From IMG/VR virus record IMGVR_UViG_3300048772_000080, positions 1 to 46,696 of that record: a DNA stretch of 46,696 nucleotides. One strand, written 5' to 3'. The notes below the pieces were generated by a model that was not told where the DNA came from, did no database searches, and saw only the letters and a list, made by a program, of their open reading frames with translations. Below, in pieces: positions 1,748-28,619 of the stretch (position 1 is the stretch's first letter; each line of letters opens with the position of its first letter). The DNA comes from a virus. Position numbers and translations under genes: made by a program.

Positions 1748-3042
1748 CAGTTCCCCACTCCAATCGTGTAGCTCGTGCCGCTCACATACGCATTCACGCT
1801 CTGGTACAGATAGCCGCCCCATGTACCTCCATACTGTCCGGTGAAAGTGAAACTCGTCGGTGCGTTCATCGGGAAGACCGTGGGGCCGGGGATAGTGAAA
1901 CTTCCTCCGCCGGGATTCGACACATTGCATGGAGATAGGTAGTAGACATACTGTGTCCCCGAAGTCGTCGCTGTAAAGCTCTGGCCTGCACAACTTGAGC
2001 CAAGACCGATATTCGTCAGCGTCCCGCTTGCCCCCACCAACGCCGCGCTTGTCCCCGATGCTGTCGCACCCGTCGCTCCTCCCGATCCCGTCCCTCCGTA
2101 AGAGCGCGGCACGAATGCAATACCGTTCGACTGCGTAACCGTCTGCCCGTTGCCCAGAGTCGTGAGCGTGAACGTCGTATTAGACGTGTAGGGGTGGCTC
2201 AGAACCCATGAGGTAAACGGAGTCGAGAGGGTATCGGTGTTCGTCCCATCGGAAACGCTTGCACTGGTCGGCACTGAAGGGTTGGCATAGCTGATCGCAC
2301 CCGAAGCCGCTGTAATGCCGCTGTAGCCAATCTCATAAGTCCCACACTGCGTACATCCAAAGCTGGCCGAGAATGGAGGCCCAGCCGCTGTAATCAGTCC
2401 CTTTGCGCTCACCGTAAAAGCTACGTTGAGATAGGTTCCCGGCGTCACAGTCGAGTCCTGCATCGACACGTTCACCGTCGATCCGCTCGGCGTAGCCACC
2501 ACCGGGGCCGTGGCCGTGACCGCGCTTAGAGGCGTGTAGGCAGCCGTCACCGCCAGTGATGGTGTCGTGTATTGGTTTGTCACCGTCGGCACCAACCACG
2601 ACGGCCATGAGGCATACGGAGCAAGGAATTGTGTCACGCTCTGCCCACCCGGAACATAGCAGTTTACGGTGTCGCACATCACGACTGAACTATTCCCGTT
2701 GGCAATCGAGACACCCGTCCCACCAGCTACTTTGACGTTGATACTCTGTCCGCCCGTCGTGTTGTTTCTGACCACCCAGTTGAAGATGCCCGTGTTGGGA
2801 GCAATCAGATTTCGCGTAGCTGTTAGAGAAGGCGTACTGGTCACGATGATCGTTCCGCCCGATCCGCTCATCTCCGGGTAGACCATCGTGTGGTCTGCGT
2901 CCGTGGCGAAGATGACCGCTGGCGAATTGATGAGTGGGCCATTGAAGCCAGAGCCGATATTGCCGGTCAATGGTATCTGCGGAGCCTGAGCAAGCACCGT
3001 CATCGGAAGCAGGAAGAGAGCGAGTTTGAGGAGTGTTTTCAT
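1747..3042 (-). CDS. Secreted tail-fibre-like protein (431 aa)
   Basis: Residues 1-19 form a Sec signal peptide (MKTLLKLALFLLPMTVLAQ). Residues 20-135 are a close paralogue of the same region in the next gene upstream: both have TGNIG, LINSP, DADHTMVYPEMSGS, TTGG and a conserved MCD/GCD Cys motif. The remainder is a low-complexity Ser/Thr/Gly region typical of beta-structured fibre shafts, with a distinct C-terminal end (about residues 330-431) that could be the binding tip. The start lies a few bases after the upstream stop. It is probably a host-contact or surface-displayed protein. Receptor and enzymatic activity cannot be judged. Confidence 0.75.
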   Translation of the reverse strand: MKTLLKLALFLLPMTVLAQAPQIPLTGNIGSGFNGPLINSPAVIFATDADHTMVYPEMSGSGGTIIVTSTPSLTATRNLIAPNTGIFNWVVRNNTTGGQSINVKVAGGTGVSIANGNSSVVMCDTVNCYVPGGQSVTQFLAPYASWPSWLVPTVTNQYTTPSLAVTAAYTPLSAVTATAPVVATPSGSTVNVSMQDSTVTPGTYLNVAFTVSAKGLITAAGPPFSASFGCTQCGTYEIGYSGITAASGAISYANPSVPTSASVSDGTNTDTLSTPFTSWVLSHPYTSNTTFTLTTLGNGQTVTQSNGIAFVPRSYGGTGSGGATGATASGTSAALVGASGTLTNIGLGSSCAGQSFTATTSGTQYVYYLSPCNVSNPGGGSFTIPGPTVFPMNAPTSFTFTGQYGGTWGGYLYQSVNAYVSGTSYTIGVGN

Positions 3043-3048
3043 AAGTTA

Positions 3049-4806
3049 CTAGTAGAGGGGTGGAACGTATACCGGGCCATTCAACTGGCAGGAGTAGCTA
3101 AAATAAACAGTAGTTAGACTGGTATTCCAAACAATTCCAAGTGCCCCAGCGCTAAAACCCCCTATATTTGGGATATACAAAGTCCCAGCGGGGATTGCGT
3201 TCAGGTAAGGGATGAGATTTACACTGCAAAAGGTGTTCGCTGAATAGGGAGTAGAGGGCGTAACTATCAATGTTCCGCCGTCCGTGAAAGGGACAGTTCC
3301 CACAATCGAAACATTCCCAGCAATAGAGCTACAAGACATATTATTTATACTTGTCATGCATGTGGCTGTTGCAGTGCCTCCAACCTCCGTAGCCGTCAAG
3401 GTGACAGAGTATGCAGTCAAAGTTCCAACACCAAGACAGTCTCCGCCGCCAGAGATCGAGGAACACGGGATTGTCGTCGAGTAAGTATCTGGCGATGCTC
3501 CGTTTCCATATCGGTATCCCGTGCCGTATCCACCCGTGCCGCCGTAGGTAGAAGCAATGGTATCCCCCTGCCAAGTTCCGGTCGTCACCGTACCCAGCGT
3601 AGTCAGGCTGGTACTACCCGCTAGAGGTGATGCTCCCACTGTGTTGTAGCTTACGGACAAAGCATTAGACCCATTGTAGGCACTTCCAGATACTGCCCCA
3701 CTCCCCCCATTATTGAAGGTCAAACTGGGGAGGTTCGACCCCAGCGAAACTCCGCTGATAGTGCTATAGGTCAGGTCTGCATTCGTCACCAACCCGTTTG
3801 CAGTGAACGCTCCTGTTACCGTAGGGCTTGCGATGGACGGCGATGCGGCCAGCACCACACTCCCTGTTCCCGTCACGCCCTTCTCGCCCAACGTGCCACT
3901 GTTGTTGTACTCAATATCCCCGTCTGTTCCGCCGATGATCGTTGTCGAACCAATAGTGATAGCCCCAGCCGATGCTGTGATGGAGCAAGAACCGCCTAGC
4001 GTACACGTTTGTCCATTGACAGTTGTGGACGGATTTAGAAGTTGAGCATTGGGAACTAACCCCGTGATGGAGCTAAAGGGAATCGTAGTGGAGTAACTGA
4101 ATGGGGAACTTCCGTTGTCGTAGGCGTATCCAGTGCCACCTGCGCCGCCCGTACCGCCCTGCCCCGTGCTGAGTGGAGTCGTCAGCCCAGAGAGGGATAG
4201 AATGTCGCTGTTGGCCCCGCTGTGCGCCGGGGCGAAGCCGAGCGCCGCTTGCTTCGCAGCAAAGTAATTGTAGGTTGGGTAATCAAGCCAGCCGTTCGTA
4301 GTTGAGTTCGCTTGTGCCATCGAGCACAACGGATTTGCTCCGCTCGTGCAGGAAATTGGAGCCGTTCCAGTGACGGACAGAACAGTTCCCCCGGAACCCG
4401 CTGGGGGGGTAAAGCAATGAGTCGCATCGCACCCCACAACCTGAGCATATCCATTGAGAATTTGTACTCCCGCTCCGGTTGATTCTTCAACATAGATTGC
4501 CTTCCCGCCAGTCGTCAGGTTCTCAACGATCCAGTTGTACTTTCCAGTTGGCACAATGAGGTTCCGCTGAGTCGAGAGAGTGGTTGAACTTGTGACCGCC
4601 AATACCCCGCTCGACCCTGACATTTCTGGGTAGACCATTGTATGGTCGGCATCGCTCGCAAAAACCACACTGGGGCTGTTGATGAGCGGAAACACCCCAC
4701 CCGCACCGATGTTCCCCGTCACTGGAACTTGTGGATACTGCGCCCAGAGCGTCGGCATAAGCAGCAGCGCGAGGATAGGCGGTACGAGTTTGGCGAGTGC
4801 CTTCAT
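3049..4806 (-). CDS. Secreted tail-fibre-like protein (585 aa)
   Basis: The N-terminus (MKALAKLVPPILALLLMPTLWAQ) is a Sec signal peptide with an LWA cleavage site. It is followed by the head domain shared with the 1747-3042 gene. The shaft carries motifs common in phage tail fibres: VNGQTCTLGGSCSI, DGDIEYNNSGTLGEKG, VLAASPSIASPTVTG, AYNGSNALSVSYNTVG and GTVTTGTWQG. The C-terminal ~110 residues differ from the paralogue. The gene sits one base after the upstream stop (TAG-C-ATG). The fibre call rests on these motifs; export is inferred from the signal peptide. Confidence 0.8.
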   Translation of the reverse strand: MKALAKLVPPILALLLMPTLWAQYPQVPVTGNIGAGGVFPLINSPSVVFASDADHTMVYPEMSGSSGVLAVTSSTTLSTQRNLIVPTGKYNWIVENLTTGGKAIYVEESTGAGVQILNGYAQVVGCDATHCFTPPAGSGGTVLSVTGTAPISCTSGANPLCSMAQANSTTNGWLDYPTYNYFAAKQAALGFAPAHSGANSDILSLSGLTTPLSTGQGGTGGAGGTGYAYDNGSSPFSYSTTIPFSSITGLVPNAQLLNPSTTVNGQTCTLGGSCSITASAGAITIGSTTIIGGTDGDIEYNNSGTLGEKGVTGTGSVVLAASPSIASPTVTGAFTANGLVTNADLTYSTISGVSLGSNLPSLTFNNGGSGAVSGSAYNGSNALSVSYNTVGASPLAGSTSLTTLGTVTTGTWQGDTIASTYGGTGGYGTGYRYGNGASPDTYSTTIPCSSISGGGDCLGVGTLTAYSVTLTATEVGGTATATCMTSINNMSCSSIAGNVSIVGTVPFTDGGTLIVTPSTPYSANTFCSVNLIPYLNAIPAGTLYIPNIGGFSAGALGIVWNTSLTTVYFSYSCQLNGPVYVPPLY

Positions 4807-4807
4807 G

Positions 4808-6412
4808 CTAAGAGGCTACCTTTGGCGTGTACGTCCCGAACAGCGCGTTTGTGGACTGATAGAGATAAAGTGTTATCGACACGCCGTTGGCGTTCAAGAA
4901 TGGCACGGTGATCGGAGCGTTGAAGGCGAATGGGAACCCCGTGCCAGCGTCGATGAACGTGTGCGATCCGCCAGTCAGCAGCAGATAGATGACCTGCCCT
5001 GATGGATTGAACGGTCCAAACGTCTCGCCCACCGTCTCCGCGCCCAGTTGCATCCGCGCCAGCACATTCCCATTACTCAGTACGGCGGTTGTGCCCGCTG
5101 CTGACACGCTCGAAGTTGCGCCCGCCGTGCCCACCCCGCCGAAGATTGCCGGTTGCCAGTTGATTGTCTGTGTTGCTGTCAAGGTCGCCCCCTGTGTTGC
5201 AGTCAATGTAAAGGTCGTGGTGGAAGTCGATGGATGCTGGAACGTCCCGACGATAGTTGCGGTGGTAAATGGAGTCGTCAGGTTCGTGGGCGAAGAGATG
5301 TTGTCCGTATTGGTGATGCTCGCGCTTGCCGGAGTCACGCTGTAAGTCGCTGCAAAAGTCGGGTTGACAACAGGATAGCCAAGTTCTACTGTTGAGCCTC
5401 CCGTAAAACTATTGATTGTGAACGCCGTTGCAAGGGAAACAGTGATTGTGCTGCCACTGGAAATACAGGACAGTCCCGTACCGCAAGCGAGCGTTAGGGC
5501 TGGCCCCGTGAGCGCGTTGACCGAAGTGATGGCAGATGAGATGTATCCCGCAGGGTTTGTCGCATTGTACGGAGTAAACCCCAACAATAGCTGGTAAGTG
5601 CTGGCTGCGGCGGAGGTTGTCAGATAAGTCGAATTATCGTAAGATATCGTAGTCCCACTGGACTTCACAAATCCGGTGCCATTGATCGCTGCTTGCTTCC
5701 CGTTCCAGTTCGACTCATCTGTGGTCGAAGGCATATAATAGCCCGATCCCGCCGATGCGGTGATGGAGGTTGTCCCTGAGCCGGACAGGATACCGCCAAG
5801 AGTTATTGTCTGGTTTCCTGAGATATACCCAGAGGGGTTCGTCGCGTTATAGGGCGTAAATCCAAGAGTTGCCTGCTTGCCGTTCAACTGCGTCTGAATT
5901 GAGCTTGTCGGGTCAACATATCCCATTACGGTCGGCGTAACCCCGTCAACCGTCAGTCCAGAAACCGATGTTGTCGTGCTGCTACCTGCAATAGAGGTTG
6001 ATCCGAGTGTGATCGGAAATCCGCCACTGCCTATCCCGACAGACAGATCAGTTAGCGTGATAGGAATGGTATAGGTATTCGGTGTTATTCCACCACTCAA
6101 AACAACATCATAACCTTGTCCTGTCGCGGCGTAAATCGGAGGGATCGAACCGTTCGTGTTTGCAGTAAAAGGATTAGCTTGCGGTGTATTAGATGAATCC
6201 TTATAGATCGTTGCCGGTGTGGTTGTATTGGTAAGATATACCTTAACCAAGCACGAGGGAATCACTCCCTCTAGGTAATTACTCGAACTTGATCCCGACG
6301 TTACCGCTTTAATGCCAGGATTTCCGCAAGCGTAGACAGGGAGAACCGCAGTCTGCCCGTGAGCCGCGAAGGGTATCAAGAGCATCGAAATCCAGAGAAC
6401 AATCCTTTTCAT
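4808..6412 (-). CDS. Secreted tail-fibre-like protein (534 aa)
   Basis: I take the ATG at 6412, which has AAGGA six bases upstream; an in-frame ATG at 6418 is possible. Residues 1-20 (MKRIVLWISMLLIPFAAHGQ) are a Sec signal peptide. Residues ~35-120 match a typical fibre N-terminal module (VKVYLTNTTTPATIYKDSSN, NPFTANTNGSIPPIYA, GYDVVLSGG). The shaft repeats FTPYNATNP(S/A)GYIS and NGKQA units. The last ~60 residues (QLGAETVGETFGPFNP onward) look like a compact tip. It is the first gene of the four-gene fibre block and follows the 131-aa virion-type gene closely. Confidence 0.8.
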   Translation of the reverse strand: MKRIVLWISMLLIPFAAHGQTAVLPVYACGNPGIKAVTSGSSSSNYLEGVIPSCLVKVYLTNTTTPATIYKDSSNTPQANPFTANTNGSIPPIYAATGQGYDVVLSGGITPNTYTIPITLTDLSVGIGSGGFPITLGSTSIAGSSTTTSVSGLTVDGVTPTVMGYVDPTSSIQTQLNGKQATLGFTPYNATNPSGYISGNQTITLGGILSGSGTTSITASAGSGYYMPSTTDESNWNGKQAAINGTGFVKSSGTTISYDNSTYLTTSAAASTYQLLLGFTPYNATNPAGYISSAITSVNALTGPALTLACGTGLSCISSGSTITVSLATAFTINSFTGGSTVELGYPVVNPTFAATYSVTPASASITNTDNISSPTNLTTPFTTATIVGTFQHPSTSTTTFTLTATQGATLTATQTINWQPAIFGGVGTAGATSSVSAAGTTAVLSNGNVLARMQLGAETVGETFGPFNPSGQVIYLLLTGGSHTFIDAGTGFPFAFNAPITVPFLNANGVSITLYLYQSTNALFGTYTPKVAS

Positions 6413-6420
6413 AGTCATCC

Positions 6421-6816
6421 TTACCGTGTGATCTGACCAGTAACCGTTACACTATTTCCCAGCGTCTTCATGTAAAGTGCAACATACTTCGGATAAACCA
6501 AGGTAGTACCAATACAGTCAAACCTCCCTACATTATTTGAGTTGACCGCAATGATGCTCCCAATCTTATTGAAGTAGTTGGGATTGTCCGTATCCGCCCC
6601 CATAATATCAACCTCAAAAGTCCCCGGCGCACCAGAGAATGCTACCTCAACCGAAAATCCCCACGGATAGGAAACGCTCCGTACACGCTCCAACTGCCAC
6701 GCTTGACTGAGCGATCCATTCGCCGCACTAGCAGGAACAGTTTCGTTATTCCACGCCACGACTTGACGATTCTCACGAAGTAACTGCGCTTGATTGACTC
6801 CTGCATATCCCGGCAT
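6421..6816 (-). CDS. Probable virion protein, unknown function (131 aa)
   Basis: No family is recognised. The protein starts MPGYAGVNQAQLLREN and has alternating hydrophobic/polar strands (GFSVEVAFSGAPGTFEVDIMGAD, YVALYMKTLGNSVTVTGQITR) suggesting a small beta-sandwich. It has no signal peptide. Its place between the connector candidate and the fibre genes suggests a tail or fibre-attachment component. That role is inferred from position only. Confidence 0.7.
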   Translation of the reverse strand: MPGYAGVNQAQLLRENRQVVAWNNETVPASAANGSLSQAWQLERVRSVSYPWGFSVEVAFSGAPGTFEVDIMGADTDNPNYFNKIGSIIAVNSNNVGRFDCIGTTLVYPKYVALYMKTLGNSVTVTGQITR

Positions 6817-11168: not shown

Positions 11169-11825
11169 CTAGGCAGTTTTCTTCATTTCGACTACGTTCA
11201 ACGGTTGCTTTTGCTTGTTCTTTTGGTAATATTCACGCTGATACTGCCGAGCCGCTTCCCGTTGCTCCTCGGTCCAATTTGCACGCATATCGCGTTTCCA
11301 CTCACGATCTTTCTCAACCCACTCAGGGTTTAGCCGGTTTACTGCGTAGTGAGTACGGCTGTTTTCTCTAGAAAGCTCCACGTTACCTTTCCATGTCTCT
11401 TTGCGATGATCTTCGTAAAAGTCGATCATCTTACTTTTCAGTTCATCTACAGACATCCCAACTGGAGATTCCCCACATAGAAACTCAAATGGATTTGCGG
11501 CGTCAATTTGTTCCTTACGCCGAGCAGTCATGTACCCATAAATCAAGGCCATGAAAATTCTGGCTCTGTCTCCGCCAATACTCCAAATACGAAAATCATA
11601 TTTTGGCCCTTGGTCTCGGATGCTCCCGCCAAACCAGTCACGAAGTCTATACAAGAGTTCTGGGTCTTTCTGCCCAACAGAAACCATGAAGCCGCGCTTC
11701 CCTATTCCTCCACCGCACAGGCGGCAGCAACCCTCGCCTTCGTAGATTCCCGCAGACCAAGCAATGTCGATGGCTGTTGGAACCTTCGTAGCGTCTAACT
11801 CCGGCTTGTTGCCTCTAACCCACAT
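11169..11825 (-). CDS. LAGLIDADG-type homing endonuclease (218 aa)
   Basis: Residues 22-33 (AWSAGIYEGEGC) match the LAGLIDADG helix and its catalytic acid, followed by a KRGFMVSVGQKDPELLYRLR strand/helix typical of the fold. Only one copy of the motif is seen, so it may act as a dimer. The C-terminal ~60 residues are basic (EEQREAARQYQREYYQKNKQ) and probably bind DNA. The gene is free-standing between scaffold and capsid genes. Neither neighbour is split, so it is not intron- or intein-borne here. Confidence 0.75.
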   Translation of the reverse strand: MWVRGNKPELDATKVPTAIDIAWSAGIYEGEGCCRLCGGGIGKRGFMVSVGQKDPELLYRLRDWFGGSIRDQGPKYDFRIWSIGGDRARIFMALIYGYMTARRKEQIDAANPFEFLCGESPVGMSVDELKSKMIDFYEDHRKETWKGNVELSRENSRTHYAVNRLNPEWVEKDREWKRDMRANWTEEQREAARQYQREYYQKNKQKQPLNVVEMKKTA

Positions 11826-13565: not shown

Positions 13566-13814
13566 CTATTTACCATCTAATTCTCTTGTCCCAACACCCA
13601 CAATGTCTCGAACCTTTTCTGAATGTTGTTCGGAGATATGTTGCTTCTGCTCTACATTAACCCCCAGAAGTCCTCCCTGATTATATGTAGCGACGACCCT
13701 ACCTGTGGCCTTAGATGAGCGCATTAGCTGGTCAATCTCACTGAGATTCGTAGGAAGATCAATTACTACGTCTGTGGTCAGAGAATCCTTCTGCGACTTG
13801 ATATTGATCGGCAT
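13566..13814 (-). CDS. Small protein of unknown function (82 aa)
   Basis: The protein begins MPINIKSQKDSLTTDVVIDL and contains SEIDQLMRSSKATGRVVATY; the charged C-terminus (HSEKVRDIVGVGTRELDGK) suggests a small soluble protein. GGAG lies ahead of the start. It is the last gene before the hairpin that closes the portal unit. No family is recognised. Confidence 0.6.
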   Translation of the reverse strand: MPINIKSQKDSLTTDVVIDLPTNLSEIDQLMRSSKATGRVVATYNQGGLLGVNVEQKQHISEQHSEKVRDIVGVGTRELDGK

Positions 13815-13845: not shown

Positions 13846-13905
13846 TTAACTCGTTGTTACCGTCGATCTAGGGTCGCCACCTTTGGCCCCTTTGGGGAAG
13901 ATTTT
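13846..13905 (-). pseudogene. Orphan copy of the portal gene 3' end
   Basis: In one minus-strand frame this reads KIFP-KGAKGGDPRSTVTTS-stop. The intact portal ends KIKA-KGAKGGDPRSTVTTS-stop at 15109-15168. The final 15 residues are identical but most codons differ at the third base (for example GAC/GAT, AGA/CGT, TCG/TCC, AGT/AGC). It lies beyond the GIY-YIG gene and the 152-aa gene. The simplest reading is that the cassette entered the portal 3' end, bringing its own recoded tail and stranding the original one. Confidence 0.7.
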
Positions 13906-14315
13906 CCGTCTTTTTCGAATGGTAACGTCTTTCCCCACTCTCCGAACTTTGGCATTCGTCGCCATTCCACAATACGAGGATCGGTTTCCATTTCTCTTTT
14001 ATGGAAGGTGCATAGCTTGTATTTGTGACCATGCGGTCCCTTTCCTACCCATGCGACTCTGCTCATGCATCGAAACCATGGACCCTCATCTCTGCTCTTC
14101 ATCCAACAGGAGTCAGGGAGAGGATTGGGAACTTCAACCGTATGCTTCCATTTTTTATCCTTTATCGTCGTCACCAAAATCTTATCGCGCTCGAACCATA
14201 TGGAGAGGTCGGGTCCACCCATAATCAACCCATCTCCCTTTAGCCTATCGTCATCTTCGAGAACGCACCTCTGGCCTTTTGGTAGAGGCGTGCTGTCCAT
14301 GATTTTATTTTTCAT
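13857..14315 (-). CDS. Unknown cassette gene next to GIY-YIG endonuclease (152 aa)
   Basis: The start overlaps the GIY-YIG stop (ATGA). The protein has KGQRCVLEDDDRLKGDGLIM, PDSCWMKSRDEGPWFRCMSR and KYKLCTFHKREMETDPRIVE; several Cys and His residues hint at metal binding. Its last ~15 residues (SSPKGPKVATLDRR) read the orphan portal tail in another frame, so the C-terminus was probably created by the insertion. Function unknown. Confidence 0.6.
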   Translation of the reverse strand: MKNKIMDSTPLPKGQRCVLEDDDRLKGDGLIMGGPDLSIWFERDKILVTTIKDKKWKHTVEVPNPLPDSCWMKSRDEGPWFRCMSRVAWVGKGPHGHKYKLCTFHKREMETDPRIVEWRRMPKFGEWGKTLPFEKDGKSSPKGPKVATLDRR

Positions 14316-15109
14316 GCTGCTCTCCCGTACTGACCTTTTTCATTCCTGATACTGAGTGTTTTCGACGAAGGTGTAATCGAAGCTGATATAGCCGTAGGAA
14401 CATCTGACCACACCTGCCCACGCTTCACACAGAAAACCATACCGACAGATAAACCATACGATTGAGCAATGGCTCCCATAGAATATCCCTGCTGTATGAG
14501 GAACTTTATCTCGGACTTCTGCTCATCTGTCCATTTGGATTTTCTCTTTACATCTCTTCCTGCCTGTATGAGTTTTTCTAGACGTTCGCCCTGCATCAGG
14601 ATTTTCCCAATTTTACTCAACTTCTCCTTCGTTTCGTCGCTAAGGGGAATACCTATACGCGAACGGTTGAGAATAGAGAAGTTTGTCCCCGAGTTGGGGT
14701 TGAATTGCCGACCTTTGTTCGCAGCGCTAATCTTCGCCTTGTGCTCATCGGACATTGGCTTTCTTTTCTTGCCTTTCAACGCAGCACTCACGGCAGCTCT
14801 GTACTCATCAGAGCACTTATACCCGCGCTCTCCGCCGTCCGTAAAGTTGATTAGATTGCATCCTTTCGCCCTCATATCAGCAATCCATTTTTTCTCCACA
14901 GCGCAGGCTAAATCCTCTTCGGCTTCCTCAACCACCTCCATCACAGGATGAAGAGATTCTTTCTTGAGACTGTTGACCCAATTCCGTAAATGCGTAGTGT
15001 GCGGGTAATTTATCTCGTTATTAAGCCTCTTTGCAGGAAAGCGAGTTAATCCGACATACCGGATTTCATTGGTAATGGGGTGCTTGAGGACGTAGATATA
15101 TACTTTCAT
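14312..15109 (-). CDS. GIY-YIG homing endonuclease with NUMOD3 repeats (265 aa)
   Basis: The N-terminal nuclease domain shows Y4-I-Y6 and RYVG (17-20) with an acidic helix near residue 70 (EEDLACAVEKKWIADM). NUMOD3-type DNA-binding repeats follow (AAVSAALKGKKRKPMSDEH, KAKISAANKGR, ~105-135). A C-terminal helix-turn-helix (EIKFLIQQGYSMGAIAQSYG, ~200-230) resembles other phage homing enzymes. Its ATG overlaps the portal stop (TAATG). The duplicated portal end around it marks it as a mobile cassette. Confidence 0.85.
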   Translation of the reverse strand: MKVYIYVLKHPITNEIRYVGLTRFPAKRLNNEINYPHTTHLRNWVNSLKKESLHPVMEVVEEAEEDLACAVEKKWIADMRAKGCNLINFTDGGERGYKCSDEYRAAVSAALKGKKRKPMSDEHKAKISAANKGRQFNPNSGTNFSILNRSRIGIPLSDETKEKLSKIGKILMQGERLEKLIQAGRDVKRKSKWTDEQKSEIKFLIQQGYSMGAIAQSYGLSVGMVFCVKRGQVWSDVPTAISASITPSSKTLSIRNEKGQYGRAA

Positions 15110-17184
15110 TAGCTCGTAGTCACCGTGGAACGAGGATCACCGCCCTTTGCACCTTTCGCTTTTATTTTCGGCGGAGCGCTGTTCGAATTTGGCCTACCCC
15201 CAGCGTGGGGTTTACCACCCTTATCGTCTCCGCCACCTAATTGTGAAGGATCGATTTCTAAAGCCTTCAACGTCTTGAGAATGTCCACTTGTGTGAGGAT
15301 TTTTAACTTCTCCAACTTCTCGGTCTCTTGGAAACTTTCCTCAATGATCTGATCTGGATTATTCAAATCCATAGCCTCAAAGATTTTCTTCCATGCGATT
15401 GGGGCACCGCCCTTCTTCAATTGGAGGAGAAGCAACTGCTGTTGCATCTGCGTAACTTTCAGTAGTGTGCTTGGAACAGAGATAAGCCTGATCTGCTTGA
15501 CGAACCACCGCGCCCGCTCCAGATTCGTGTACTTCGATTCCGTTTCAGGGAACTGTCCACCAACCATTTCGTCCGGCAAGTGGCTAGGAACTAGGTCGTT
15601 TGGCTTGTAGTCAAACACTTCTGGAGCCATCTTGTCAGGGCCGACGTATTCCATGATTCTCTGTGTATCAAACCATTGTAGAATAAGGTACTTTACCCTC
15701 ATCCCGACAGACTTGTTCGCCTTCTCGACCCTAGCAGCAATTCCTTTTCCTACCGGCCCAATGGATTCGAGCATCTTGTCAGCAGTGTCGCTGGCTATCT
15801 GCAATTTCATATTTGCGCCGAGATTTCCCAAATCCTCAAGCCCAAGTTGCTTGCCTTCCTTGCTGTTAAGGTATTCAAGAAACTTGAAGTGTTCAGATTT
15901 AGGACGTACATCGGGCAGAACTGATTGAAGAATGTCCTTTGGATTCCCCTCCACGCCGTAACGAATATTTGGCTCAAAGACATCGAAATGCTCCATCTTT
16001 GGGCCTCCAGCATTCATATGATCGTAGCCCATCGGTGGGTTCATTTCTGCCGATAGACTCTGATCCATCAGTCTTTCTAATTTCCTGATCGTAGTCTCAA
16101 TGCTTGCTACATCGCCTACGATAGATCGTCCCAGCGGCTCCCATGCCCAGTCGTCAACCGTGTACTGGATAATTGGTATACGAGGGTCCCAGTCGAAGGC
16201 GGGGCCGTCGTACATTGGCTTACCCATCCCTGTTGAGGTGATGATGAGCCGCAGATTGGGGTATACCCGGCAATGCTGTGATTCGGCAGGAATATAGTAT
16301 GGTTCTCCATTCCTCATCCCTCCAAATATTTGTTGCCCTACGAACGGGACACGGTAGAACCACGTCGTTCCCAAGTCTCCCATCGGGAGTTCGTACCCTG
16401 TGTTGTTGATCCGCAAATCGCGCACAAAAGTGTAACGGATTTCAGCATACAGATTACCGAATGTCCTGCCCGTATCCCCGTAGCGGTTCCGCTCCGCGTA
16501 ATCGACTCGCTGCGCCTGCATCCTCGTCTGATAGTTCCGACGCGCTCCTACAGTCTGAATTTCCTTCTGGAACAATGGAAACCTGCCATGCGCCTCAGCG
16601 ATAGGCATGTAGTCGTAGACCGTGACCGCGTAGGCATCCTGAATGTCGTTGGTTCGGGAAGGAATCTGCGTAGGAATAACGTCTAAAAGTCCTAGCGCGT
16701 CAAACTCCATTCTCCTCTCGCCATACCCGTACTCCGTAGCCCTCACCTTCGGCCACAAGTATCCGATCCCCATGACTGAGGCATACTGGAGAACTTTCAG
16801 GATTTGGAATGGGAAGTCAGACTCTAAGTAGACGCATTTGCTTACTCTTGTAAGCATCTCTGCCATCTTCTTGTAAATTGGGGAGTCCGACCCGTAACCA
16901 GCAATTTCACGAACCTGCGCCAGCGTCTCGCAGAACTTGCGAATATCGTATTTTAAGGCGTTTGTTACTAAACTTGATCTACATTTATCGTTGAATACCG
17001 CATTAAAAACTCTGAGATTTTTGGCGAGGTCTTTGTAGCAGCGTTGGGCTTCAAGAAATCCCTCACCCTCTTGAATTTGGCTCTCCACCCAAGCGTAGAT
17101 TTCCTCTGGGTGTGACCAAAAAGGAGGAGCCTGCCAGGAGCTAGTCTCGCTTTTATCCCGGAAATAACTCGTGGATTCGCCCAT
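15109..17184 (-). CDS. Portal protein (691 aa)
   Basis: I take ATG 17184; a GTG at 17193 in frame is possible. The size fits the large portal class of short-tailed phages. Features include a helical N-terminal clip/stem region, the DPRIPIIQYTVDDWAWEPLG segment, IVGDVASIETTIRKLERLMD, and a C-terminal helical region (LLKVTQMQQQLLLLQLKKGG) followed by a disordered Lys/Gly tail. It forms the DNA entry ring at the capsid vertex and docks terminase. Its final codons are duplicated at 13846-13905. Confidence 0.75.
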   Translation of the reverse strand: MGESTSYFRDKSETSSWQAPPFWSHPEEIYAWVESQIQEGEGFLEAQRCYKDLAKNLRVFNAVFNDKCRSSLVTNALKYDIRKFCETLAQVREIAGYGSDSPIYKKMAEMLTRVSKCVYLESDFPFQILKVLQYASVMGIGYLWPKVRATEYGYGERRMEFDALGLLDVIPTQIPSRTNDIQDAYAVTVYDYMPIAEAHGRFPLFQKEIQTVGARRNYQTRMQAQRVDYAERNRYGDTGRTFGNLYAEIRYTFVRDLRINNTGYELPMGDLGTTWFYRVPFVGQQIFGGMRNGEPYYIPAESQHCRVYPNLRLIITSTGMGKPMYDGPAFDWDPRIPIIQYTVDDWAWEPLGRSIVGDVASIETTIRKLERLMDQSLSAEMNPPMGYDHMNAGGPKMEHFDVFEPNIRYGVEGNPKDILQSVLPDVRPKSEHFKFLEYLNSKEGKQLGLEDLGNLGANMKLQIASDTADKMLESIGPVGKGIAARVEKANKSVGMRVKYLILQWFDTQRIMEYVGPDKMAPEVFDYKPNDLVPSHLPDEMVGGQFPETESKYTNLERARWFVKQIRLISVPSTLLKVTQMQQQLLLLQLKKGGAPIAWKKIFEAMDLNNPDQIIEESFQETEKLEKLKILTQVDILKTLKALEIDPSQLGGGDDKGGKPHAGGRPNSNSAPPKIKAKGAKGGDPRSTVTTS

Positions 17185-17359
17185 TACTGGCACTGGGTAT
17201 TCTCACAATTTCTCTCCCGGTACCGCCCCACTTCCCCAAATAGGGCGTTTCACTACAAGTCGTTACTCTGTGAGAGTGTAGCGCAAATTTTCCTGCGCGT
17301 CTATAAAATTGTTTTGACAGCCCCACGCCAAACATGCATCATAGGGAGTGAGGTGCCTT
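17185..17359. other. Divergent intergenic control region
   Basis: This gap separates the leftward portal gene from the rightward membrane-protein pair. It holds a plus-strand promoter candidate, a CCGGGAG element facing the portal, and a small ACTCT/AGAGT dyad near 17267-17279. I found no convincing leftward promoter hexamer pair. Confidence 0.4.
17314..17342 (+). promoter_or_regulatory. Promoter for the small membrane-protein pair
   Basis: TTGACA (17314-17319) is followed after 17 bases by CATCAT (17337-17342), matching four of six -10 positions. The downstream ATG at 17360 has GAGG eight bases before it. This is the only plus-strand unit in the left 39 kb. Confidence 0.4.
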
Positions 17360-27609: not shown

Positions 27610-28619
27610 GCGGAAAACGTGAAAACATTTTGCGTAACCCCCAGACAGTGCGGAGAGAACCAAATACGCTCCCGATCTGCGTTTTCTCTTCCCGATCCGT
27701 TGCCTTGCGATCCATACCCCCCGCACCCCTTCCATGCAACACATTCCCATGAGTCCGGCATAGTGTGTTCACCTTCATAGCCACAAAGAGCTATTCTCAT
27801 CTCTCTATTATCTCCATTTTCGATAGCCCATTCTCTAACCTCATGGGACACGTCGTTGCTGTCTGAAGAATAGATATTGTCCTGACGACCAGCAGTGTCG
27901 GCATAAGGTGGATCAAGGAACACGCCAGTTAGTCCATGATGGAACGTTACCGAAGGCCCACAGATTCGTTCCCAGTTTCCGCACACTACGCGAACCCGCC
28001 GCAAACGCTTTGCGAGTTCTCCCATGTACGCCTGAGTTGGAGTGTCAACGTAATTTTCCTCCGCAGCGTCCCCTAGATGCGGTAGCTTCCTATGCACCCC
28101 TGTTCCAGCGTTCCCTAGATGCGGTAGCTGTCGATTCACACCGCGTCCAGCGTCCCCTAGATGCGGTAGCTGTCGATTCACACCGCGTCCAGCGTCCCCT
28201 AGATGCGGTAGCTGTACTGAGCACCATCCTGATCCAATCCACACGCACTGCCCCCACACCCACCATCCAGCAATCTTTGGATCATAGAAATCAGGGTCAA
28301 CCTTCATCCTCTCTCGAAACTCTTCCTGCGAAACCAGCCATAGATGACGCGCATGTTGATCGGACTCGTTTACGGGAGAGTCGGCATAGAAAGCTACCTC
28401 ATCGGGGTCATTCTGGCAGGCTCTCCAAAAGTTCGCTACCATACAATCCAGATCATTTACTGTCTCAGTATGCGCGGTGTGCGGACGCCCAAGCAGTACC
28501 GCTCCTGACCCGAAGAACGGCTCGACATAGTTAGGCACATCGCCGAAGTGATCCCAAACCAAGTCCGCAACACGAGATTTCCCCCCAAACCAAGGGAACG
28601 GGGAACGAAGATCAGCCAC
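27606..28619 (-). CDS. DNA adenine methyltransferase, D12/Dam class, with internal repeat (337 aa)
   Basis: Transfers methyl from S-adenosylmethionine to adenine N6. Motifs: FPWFGGKSRVADLVW at the N-terminus, VEPFFGSGAVL (FxGxG) near residues 33-43, and VFLDPPYAD (DPPY) near 230. Between them, ~135-185, a 14-residue unit QLPHLGDAGRGVNR is repeated three to four times, encoded by a 42-bp tandem repeat. Likely role: protect phage DNA from host restriction or affect regulation. The repeat is an odd insertion near the target-recognition region. Confidence 0.85.
   Translation of the reverse strand: MADLRSPFPWFGGKSRVADLVWDHFGDVPNYVEPFFGSGAVLLGRPHTAHTETVNDLDCMVANFWRACQNDPDEVAFYADSPVNESDQHARHLWLVSQEEFRERMKVDPDFYDPKIAGWWVWGQCVWIGSGWCSVQLPHLGDAGRGVNRQLPHLGDAGRGVNRQLPHLGNAGTGVHRKLPHLGDAAEENYVDTPTQAYMGELAKRLRRVRVVCGNWERICGPSVTFHHGLTGVFLDPPYADTAGRQDNIYSSDSNDVSHEVREWAIENGDNREMRIALCGYEGEHTMPDSWECVAWKGCGGYGSQGNGSGRENADRERIWFSPHCLGVTQNVFTFSA
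28065..28215 (-). repeat. 42-bp tandem repeat inside the methylase gene
   Basis: Units start at 28065, 28107, 28149 and 28191, an exact 42-base period. The second and third are nearly identical; the fourth matches for its first ~25 bases. The period is a multiple of three, so copy-number change keeps the frame. Confidence 0.9.

Follow-up and report, generated by a model that had tools for sequence, protein, structure and literature searches.

A Portal Gene 3' End Encoded Twice Around a Putative GIY-YIG Homing Endonuclease Cassette in a Metagenomic Virus

The Portal Locus and Its Two Tails

The window, which is the whole stretch analyzed, comprised 46,696 nt of the IMG/VR virus record IMGVR_UViG_3300048772_000080. 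Its portal gene encoded a protein that ended in ...KIKAKGAKGGDPRSTVTTS-stop and was 29% identical over 85% to the annotated portal of Tunturiibacter phages, the nearest cultured relatives, and 61–89% identical to the portals of 80 IMG/VR loci (designated below by L numbers). One relative lay in an Acidobacteriaceae genome bin which, together with the relationship to the Tunturiibacter phages, indicates that the hosts are probably acidobacteria. The features of the locus were as follows.

15109..17193 (-): portal gene, 694 aa, an essential structural gene whose 3' end was probably replaced (similarity to portals)
15109..15420 (-): portal tract of the last ~100 codons, probably imported; its approximate upstream limit was deduced from the identity step against L002
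15109..15156 (-): active portal tail, KGAKGGDPRSTVTTS-stop, the end in use (translation)
14312..15109 (-): putative GIY-YIG homing endonuclease, 265 aa, with NUMOD3 and a C-terminal HTH (PHROG_314, Pfam, fold match)
13857..14315 (-): passenger ORF, 152 aa, without known relative
13846..13893 (-): orphan (probably resident) portal tail, same peptide in other codons, not translated with the portal (nearest tails: cassette-less L016, L002)
13566..13814 (-): orf82, 31 nt after the orphan here and after the portal tail in most cassette-less relatives

Comparison of the window translations revealed that the C-terminal portal peptide was encoded twice, both times on the minus strand. The repeat consisted of the last 15 portal codons plus the stop, with similarity running from the first K to the stop and flanks that were unlike. 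The 60-nt spans given in a preliminary description of this DNA located both copies but extended 12 nt beyond the similarity, the exact spans being 48 nt. The two peptides were identical, while 11 of the 16 codons and 12 of the 48 nt differed, and every one of the 12 differences was synonymous (over 45 nt, 33 were identical, with 11 codons different). The copies matched each other with a BLOSUM62 score of 78, and in 64 other 1.3-kb stretches of the window no score was above 30. In cassette-less relatives the score did not exceed 39, and the match at 39 fell in an unrelated gene. The duplication is real, and the preliminary description was confirmed on this point. It had also taken the orphan copy to be out of use, which was borne out because the ORF overlapping the orphan (13857–14315) is read in another frame. 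In an unused copy about 73% of changes are expected to be non-silent, so that the probability of finding none among 12 is ~1e-7. The copies therefore diverged as working portal ends, before coming together.

The cassette, made up of a portal tail, the endonuclease gene and the passenger ORF, was situated inside the portal frame, 15 codons before the resident stop. The tail that it carries completes the portal frame and, judging from the sequence, is the end used by the portal, and the resident tail stays downstream, adjoining orf82. The 3' end of the gene is duplicated around an endonuclease ORF, as in mobile ORFs that replace the 3' ends of genes. The ATG of the endonuclease gene overlapped the portal stop (TAATG), the start of the passenger ORF lay in the endonuclease stop (ATGA), and its end lay out of frame inside the orphan tail. 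Searches of Pfam, PHROGs, NCBIfam, phages and IMG/VR gave no match to the passenger ORF. Different phages carried different genes behind the endonuclease gene; L088, for example, had another passenger ORF of ~200 aa at ~5800–6440, between the endonuclease gene and orf82. Read-through of the passenger ORF into the orphan was considered as a conserved feature and dropped, being in frame in L007 and not in L054.

The Putative GIY-YIG Endonuclease

The product of the endonuclease gene matched the homing endonuclease family PHROG_314 (1.2e-17) and NUMOD3 (2.7e-12, 46.8 bits), as well as the Pfam GIY-YIG domain at 4e-4, just under the family cut-off, and a helix-turn-helix (HTH) at residues 188–222, a weak match below the cut-off. 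A search of its profile against the sequences of solved structures gave no match. The catalytic motif residues Y6, Y18-V-G20, R28, E72 and N88 were invariant in seven homologues, and dN was far below dS. The top fold match of the structural model was the I-TevI catalytic domain (E 0.011, prob 1.00), the model being of moderate quality (pLDDT 71, ~80 in the catalytic part). These data indicate a predicted enzyme that is intact, I-TevI-like and under purifying selection.

Like the I-TevI family of GIY-YIG homing endonucleases, the predicted enzyme combined a GIY-YIG catalytic domain retaining the conserved residues with a modular DNA-binding part (NUMOD3 and C-terminal HTH), and sequence and predicted fold would place it among them. 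In contrast to that family, this predicted nuclease is not intron-encoded. The cleavage motif of I-TevI is CNNNG; as a means of discriminating between tails it was useless, since the Pro-Arg codons supply it in every one of them.

Other Endonuclease Genes and Repeats

A second endonuclease gene, of the HNH type (PHROG_5046), was located at 11169–11825 (-) of the window, between orf337 and the major capsid gene. Compared with L023, from which it was absent, it was a clean intergenic insertion with flanks 95–97% identical and no tail duplication, as expected because no coding sequence needs rebuilding there. L023 itself carried, at 1882–3093 (-), between orf82 and orf101, an oppositely oriented gene for a 403-aa HNH-like protein with repeated CxxC motifs, and the contig of L101 started with a GIY-YIG gene. 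The cluster of head genes is a hot spot at which endonuclease genes insert.

Several repeats were also observed in the window. Tandem repeats of ~42 nt at 28064–28200 were open in several frames on both strands. Minus-strand frames contained the repeated peptide DADHTMVYPEMSG at 2860–2900 and 4610–4650, and the repeated peptide LGFTPYNATNP at 5550–5590 and 5840–5870; both are possibly tail-fiber repeats.

Relatives With and Without the Cassette

Scans of IMG/VR yielded ~78 distinct portal loci without the cassette, and endonuclease-bearing tails of seven distinct haplotypes. In the cassette-less loci the portal stop was followed, mostly after a gap of ~10–100 nt, by orf82, with other insertions in this gap in a few cases (L018, L079, and L132). 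The preliminary description had named cassette-less relatives with both copies as the case that would count against it; a second portal tail was found in none of the ~78.

Three of the seven endonuclease-bearing haplotypes had an orphan tail (the window, L007/L008/L009, and L054), a small number, of which L007 and L054 probably derive from one original event. The other four (L056, L071, L085–87, and L088) had no orphan, and their endonuclease gene lay between the portal gene and orf82 (or the place where orf82 would be). The endonuclease gene can therefore exist free-standing behind the portal gene, and duplication is not obligatory; in some lineages the displaced tail additionally records the route by which the endonuclease gene came in. 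Among all loci scanned, no other 3' end was duplicated around an endonuclease gene, the only similar cases being paralogous tail-region genes (L027, L051, L070, and L101). In L101 these included adjacent paralogous ORFs at 3239–3829 and 3836–4369, with similar ends (TLNDLHTGGEFVSP and TLDDLSTGGEFVAP).

Divergence of the Two Tails

According to the preliminary description, the active tail had been recoded. This was not borne out, as two cassette-less loci, L011 and L013, were just as divergent from each other as the two window tails (15/15 aa and 32/45 nt identical, 11 codons different). Moreover, divergence from L002 reached far upstream of the duplicated 48 nt, with 86–98% identity in the portal body just upstream giving way to 40–65% over the last ~300 nt. 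In those ~300 nt the window was closest to the cassette-bearing L007 and L054, and the L002 group differed from every other lineage in the portal 3' region; the identity step may partly be due to foreign DNA having entered L002, not the window. The active tails of L007 and L054 were near to natural tails elsewhere (31/39 nt to L015 and 31/39 nt to L013, respectively) and included amino-acid changes relative to their own orphans. Capture of the tail from a diverged donor during homing would explain the divergence, so that recoding is not needed. The term "recoded" appears to overstate a silent divergence that is of a size normal between lineages of this phage group and is not necessarily anything more.

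In its strong form, recoding would mean that selection changed the codons of the active tail so that the resident endonuclease cannot cut them. All changes between the window tails are indeed synonymous, and L007 and L054 differ in a pattern that looks as if target and specificity had changed together: identity was 97% in the portal body and 83–100% over most of the catalytic domain, against 66% in the tail and 48–68% in the DNA-binding part, returning mostly to 70–92% beyond it. Cassette-less pairs with at least 88% body identity never fell below 87% in the tail. A GAT codon before PR was present in four of seven endonuclease-bearing tails and in one of 61 others (Fisher p 2e-4, for a comparison chosen after looking, uncorrected, and made on tails that are not independent). 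Against this stand the equal divergence of the cassette-less L011 and L013, the natural counterparts and amino-acid changes of the L007 and L054 active tails, and the upstream extent of the divergence from L002, which together make the strong form unlikely. The L007/L054 and GAT data, few and post hoc, are consistent with tails escaping the accompanying nuclease and give a hint in that direction; immunity of the carrier to self-cutting is plausible. Whether the tail might further serve as a DNA-level antidote matched to its nuclease, with the DNA-binding part and the tail changing together, is a tentative and rather doubtful proposition. If true, tail and nuclease would travel together from phage to phage, pairing cutting with immunity within an essential gene.

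Identity of the Resident Tail

Tails were compared over 39 comparable nt (39–45 nt in all), a short stretch that gives modest margins. The window orphan was nearest to the cassette-less L016 (31/39) and L002 (29/39), to which the active tail matched at 25 and 24 positions. Similarly, the L007 and L054 orphans matched the cassette-less L014 at 32/39 and 31/39, against 25 and 23 for their active tails. The expectation of the preliminary description that single-tail relatives would resemble the orphan thus held for L016 and L002, the nearest relatives lacking the cassette, and not for the cassette-less L015 and L010, which do not favor the orphan. As in 3'-end-replacing mobile ORFs, the displaced copy resembles relatives lacking the element and the inserted copy has diverged, here by modest margins over 39–45 nt. 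Since the orphan is like cassette-less tails and occupies the same setting next to orf82, it fits the resident tail, and the active tail would be foreign, having come with the GIY-YIG homing endonuclease. The earlier proposal that the cassette brought a replacement portal tail and left the old end as an orphan is supported by the tails of relatives and by the order relative to orf82.

The roles might instead be reversed, with the active tail resident and the orphan brought by the cassette as a homology arm or as a remnant of an earlier host gene. In favor of this reading, the orphans of L007 and L054 are ~90% identical and their active tails ~66–70%. However, orf82 is next to the orphan, in the position where cassette-less relatives have their only tail; the orphans match cassette-less L016, L002, and L014; and close cassette-less pairs (at least 88% in the body) keep the tail at 87% or more, so that a 34% difference between L007 and L054 is more than expected of resident active tails. 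A reversal of roles is therefore very unlikely.

An assembly chimera of two related phages from one metagenome might be suspected, given the metagenomic origin of the virus record and the heavy recombination among close relatives. The same anatomy in four independent contigs from other metagenomes (L007, L008, L009, and L054) shows that the architecture is not an assembly accident of this window, and leaves a chimera extremely improbable. Least probable of all is a self-splicing intron or other spliced element, with the orphan as downstream exon and the active tail as decoy. Phage group I introns typically bring an endonuclease ORF into a conserved gene (PMC2988022). However, an intron core would find no space here, since the portal gene, endonuclease gene and passenger ORF overlap or abut; the sequence behind the endonuclease gene is unrelated between the window and L007; and even with relaxed thresholds no intron family or other RNA element was matched in the window, in L007 or in L054. 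Assignment to the endonuclease-bearing group I introns was rejected for want of an intron core.

Proposed Mechanism

The arrangement is probably best explained by a homing endonuclease cassette that carried its own substitute for the portal 3' end. During co-infection, the endonuclease would cut the resident portal gene near the codons for KGAKGG, close to the insertion junction (~13890 in the window), and the repair template would be a diverged phage in which the endonuclease gene already stood at the portal 3' end. On the upstream side, homologous recombination in the portal body would copy in the donor tail, the endonuclease gene and the passenger gene, while the downstream side would be joined without long homology, so that the resident tail was retained as a relic rather than replaced. 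The essential protein would stay whole thanks to the new tail. The active tail, with codons from another lineage, would probably no longer be a site for the enzyme, and the orphan would lack the upstream half of the site, leaving the carrier genome uncut.

The junctions of the window and of L007/L054 coincided within about one codon, their passenger ORFs were unrelated and their orphans came from different residents, which suggests two entries at the same cut. Some observations sit less easily with the replacement cassette. It is slightly unexpected that the two window tails, if one came from a diverged donor, should encode exactly one and the same peptide, down to the rare TTS end. No donor of the window's active tail was found among the sampled loci, the best natural match being 27/39 nt; the L002 region is odd; and four lineages lack an orphan.

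Comparison With Known Systems and Implications

Restoration of a host gene by an incoming element has parallels among integrating elements. Prophage e14 in the icd gene of E. coli reportedly restores the 3' end of its host gene with a synonymous variant, and other integrases also rebuild the 3' end of their target gene. Whereas e14 relies on an integrase and attachment sites, the window cassette contains a putative endonuclease, and no integrase or attachment site was seen.

A closer likeness is found in the carboxy-terminal-duplicating mobile ORFs (mORFs) of Glomus sp. mitochondrial atp6, atp9, cox2, and nad3, described earlier in Allomyces atp6 (PMC3630166). In these, the inserted C-terminal takes over from the native one, and the latter is still found downstream and matches the element-less relative; native and inserted ends share 64–81% nt identity and encode near-identical protein, and the atp9 mORF of Glomus combines a GIY-YIG enzyme with a 51-bp tail (PMC3630166). 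The window likewise has an endonuclease ORF in the 3' end of a gene and the replaced tail kept downstream, and the argument published for those mORFs runs along the lines followed here (PMC3630166). The window differs in belonging to a double-stranded DNA phage, in affecting the portal gene, and in its passenger ORF.

Among phages, the free-standing Seg and Mob endonucleases of T4-type phages resemble the predicted window enzyme as intronless endonucleases encoded beside a conserved gene; flanking DNA is co-converted with them, and the carrier is protected by a difference in target sequence (review PMC2988022). They lie between genes or split genes, in contrast to the duplicated, displaced 3' end of the window, an arrangement of which no mention was found in the passages of that review that were searched (PMC2988022). 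No phage precedent was found in the phage homing reviews and papers searched, in which subscription journals were little covered. By analogy, the portal cassette appears to be a phage variant of an arrangement known from fungal mitochondria.

With cassette-bearing, cassette-less and orphan tails all in hand, escape of the carrier through natural codon divergence becomes directly testable. The arrangement would offer an intronless selfish nuclease a way to settle within the coding part of an essential virion gene and leave that gene unharmed.
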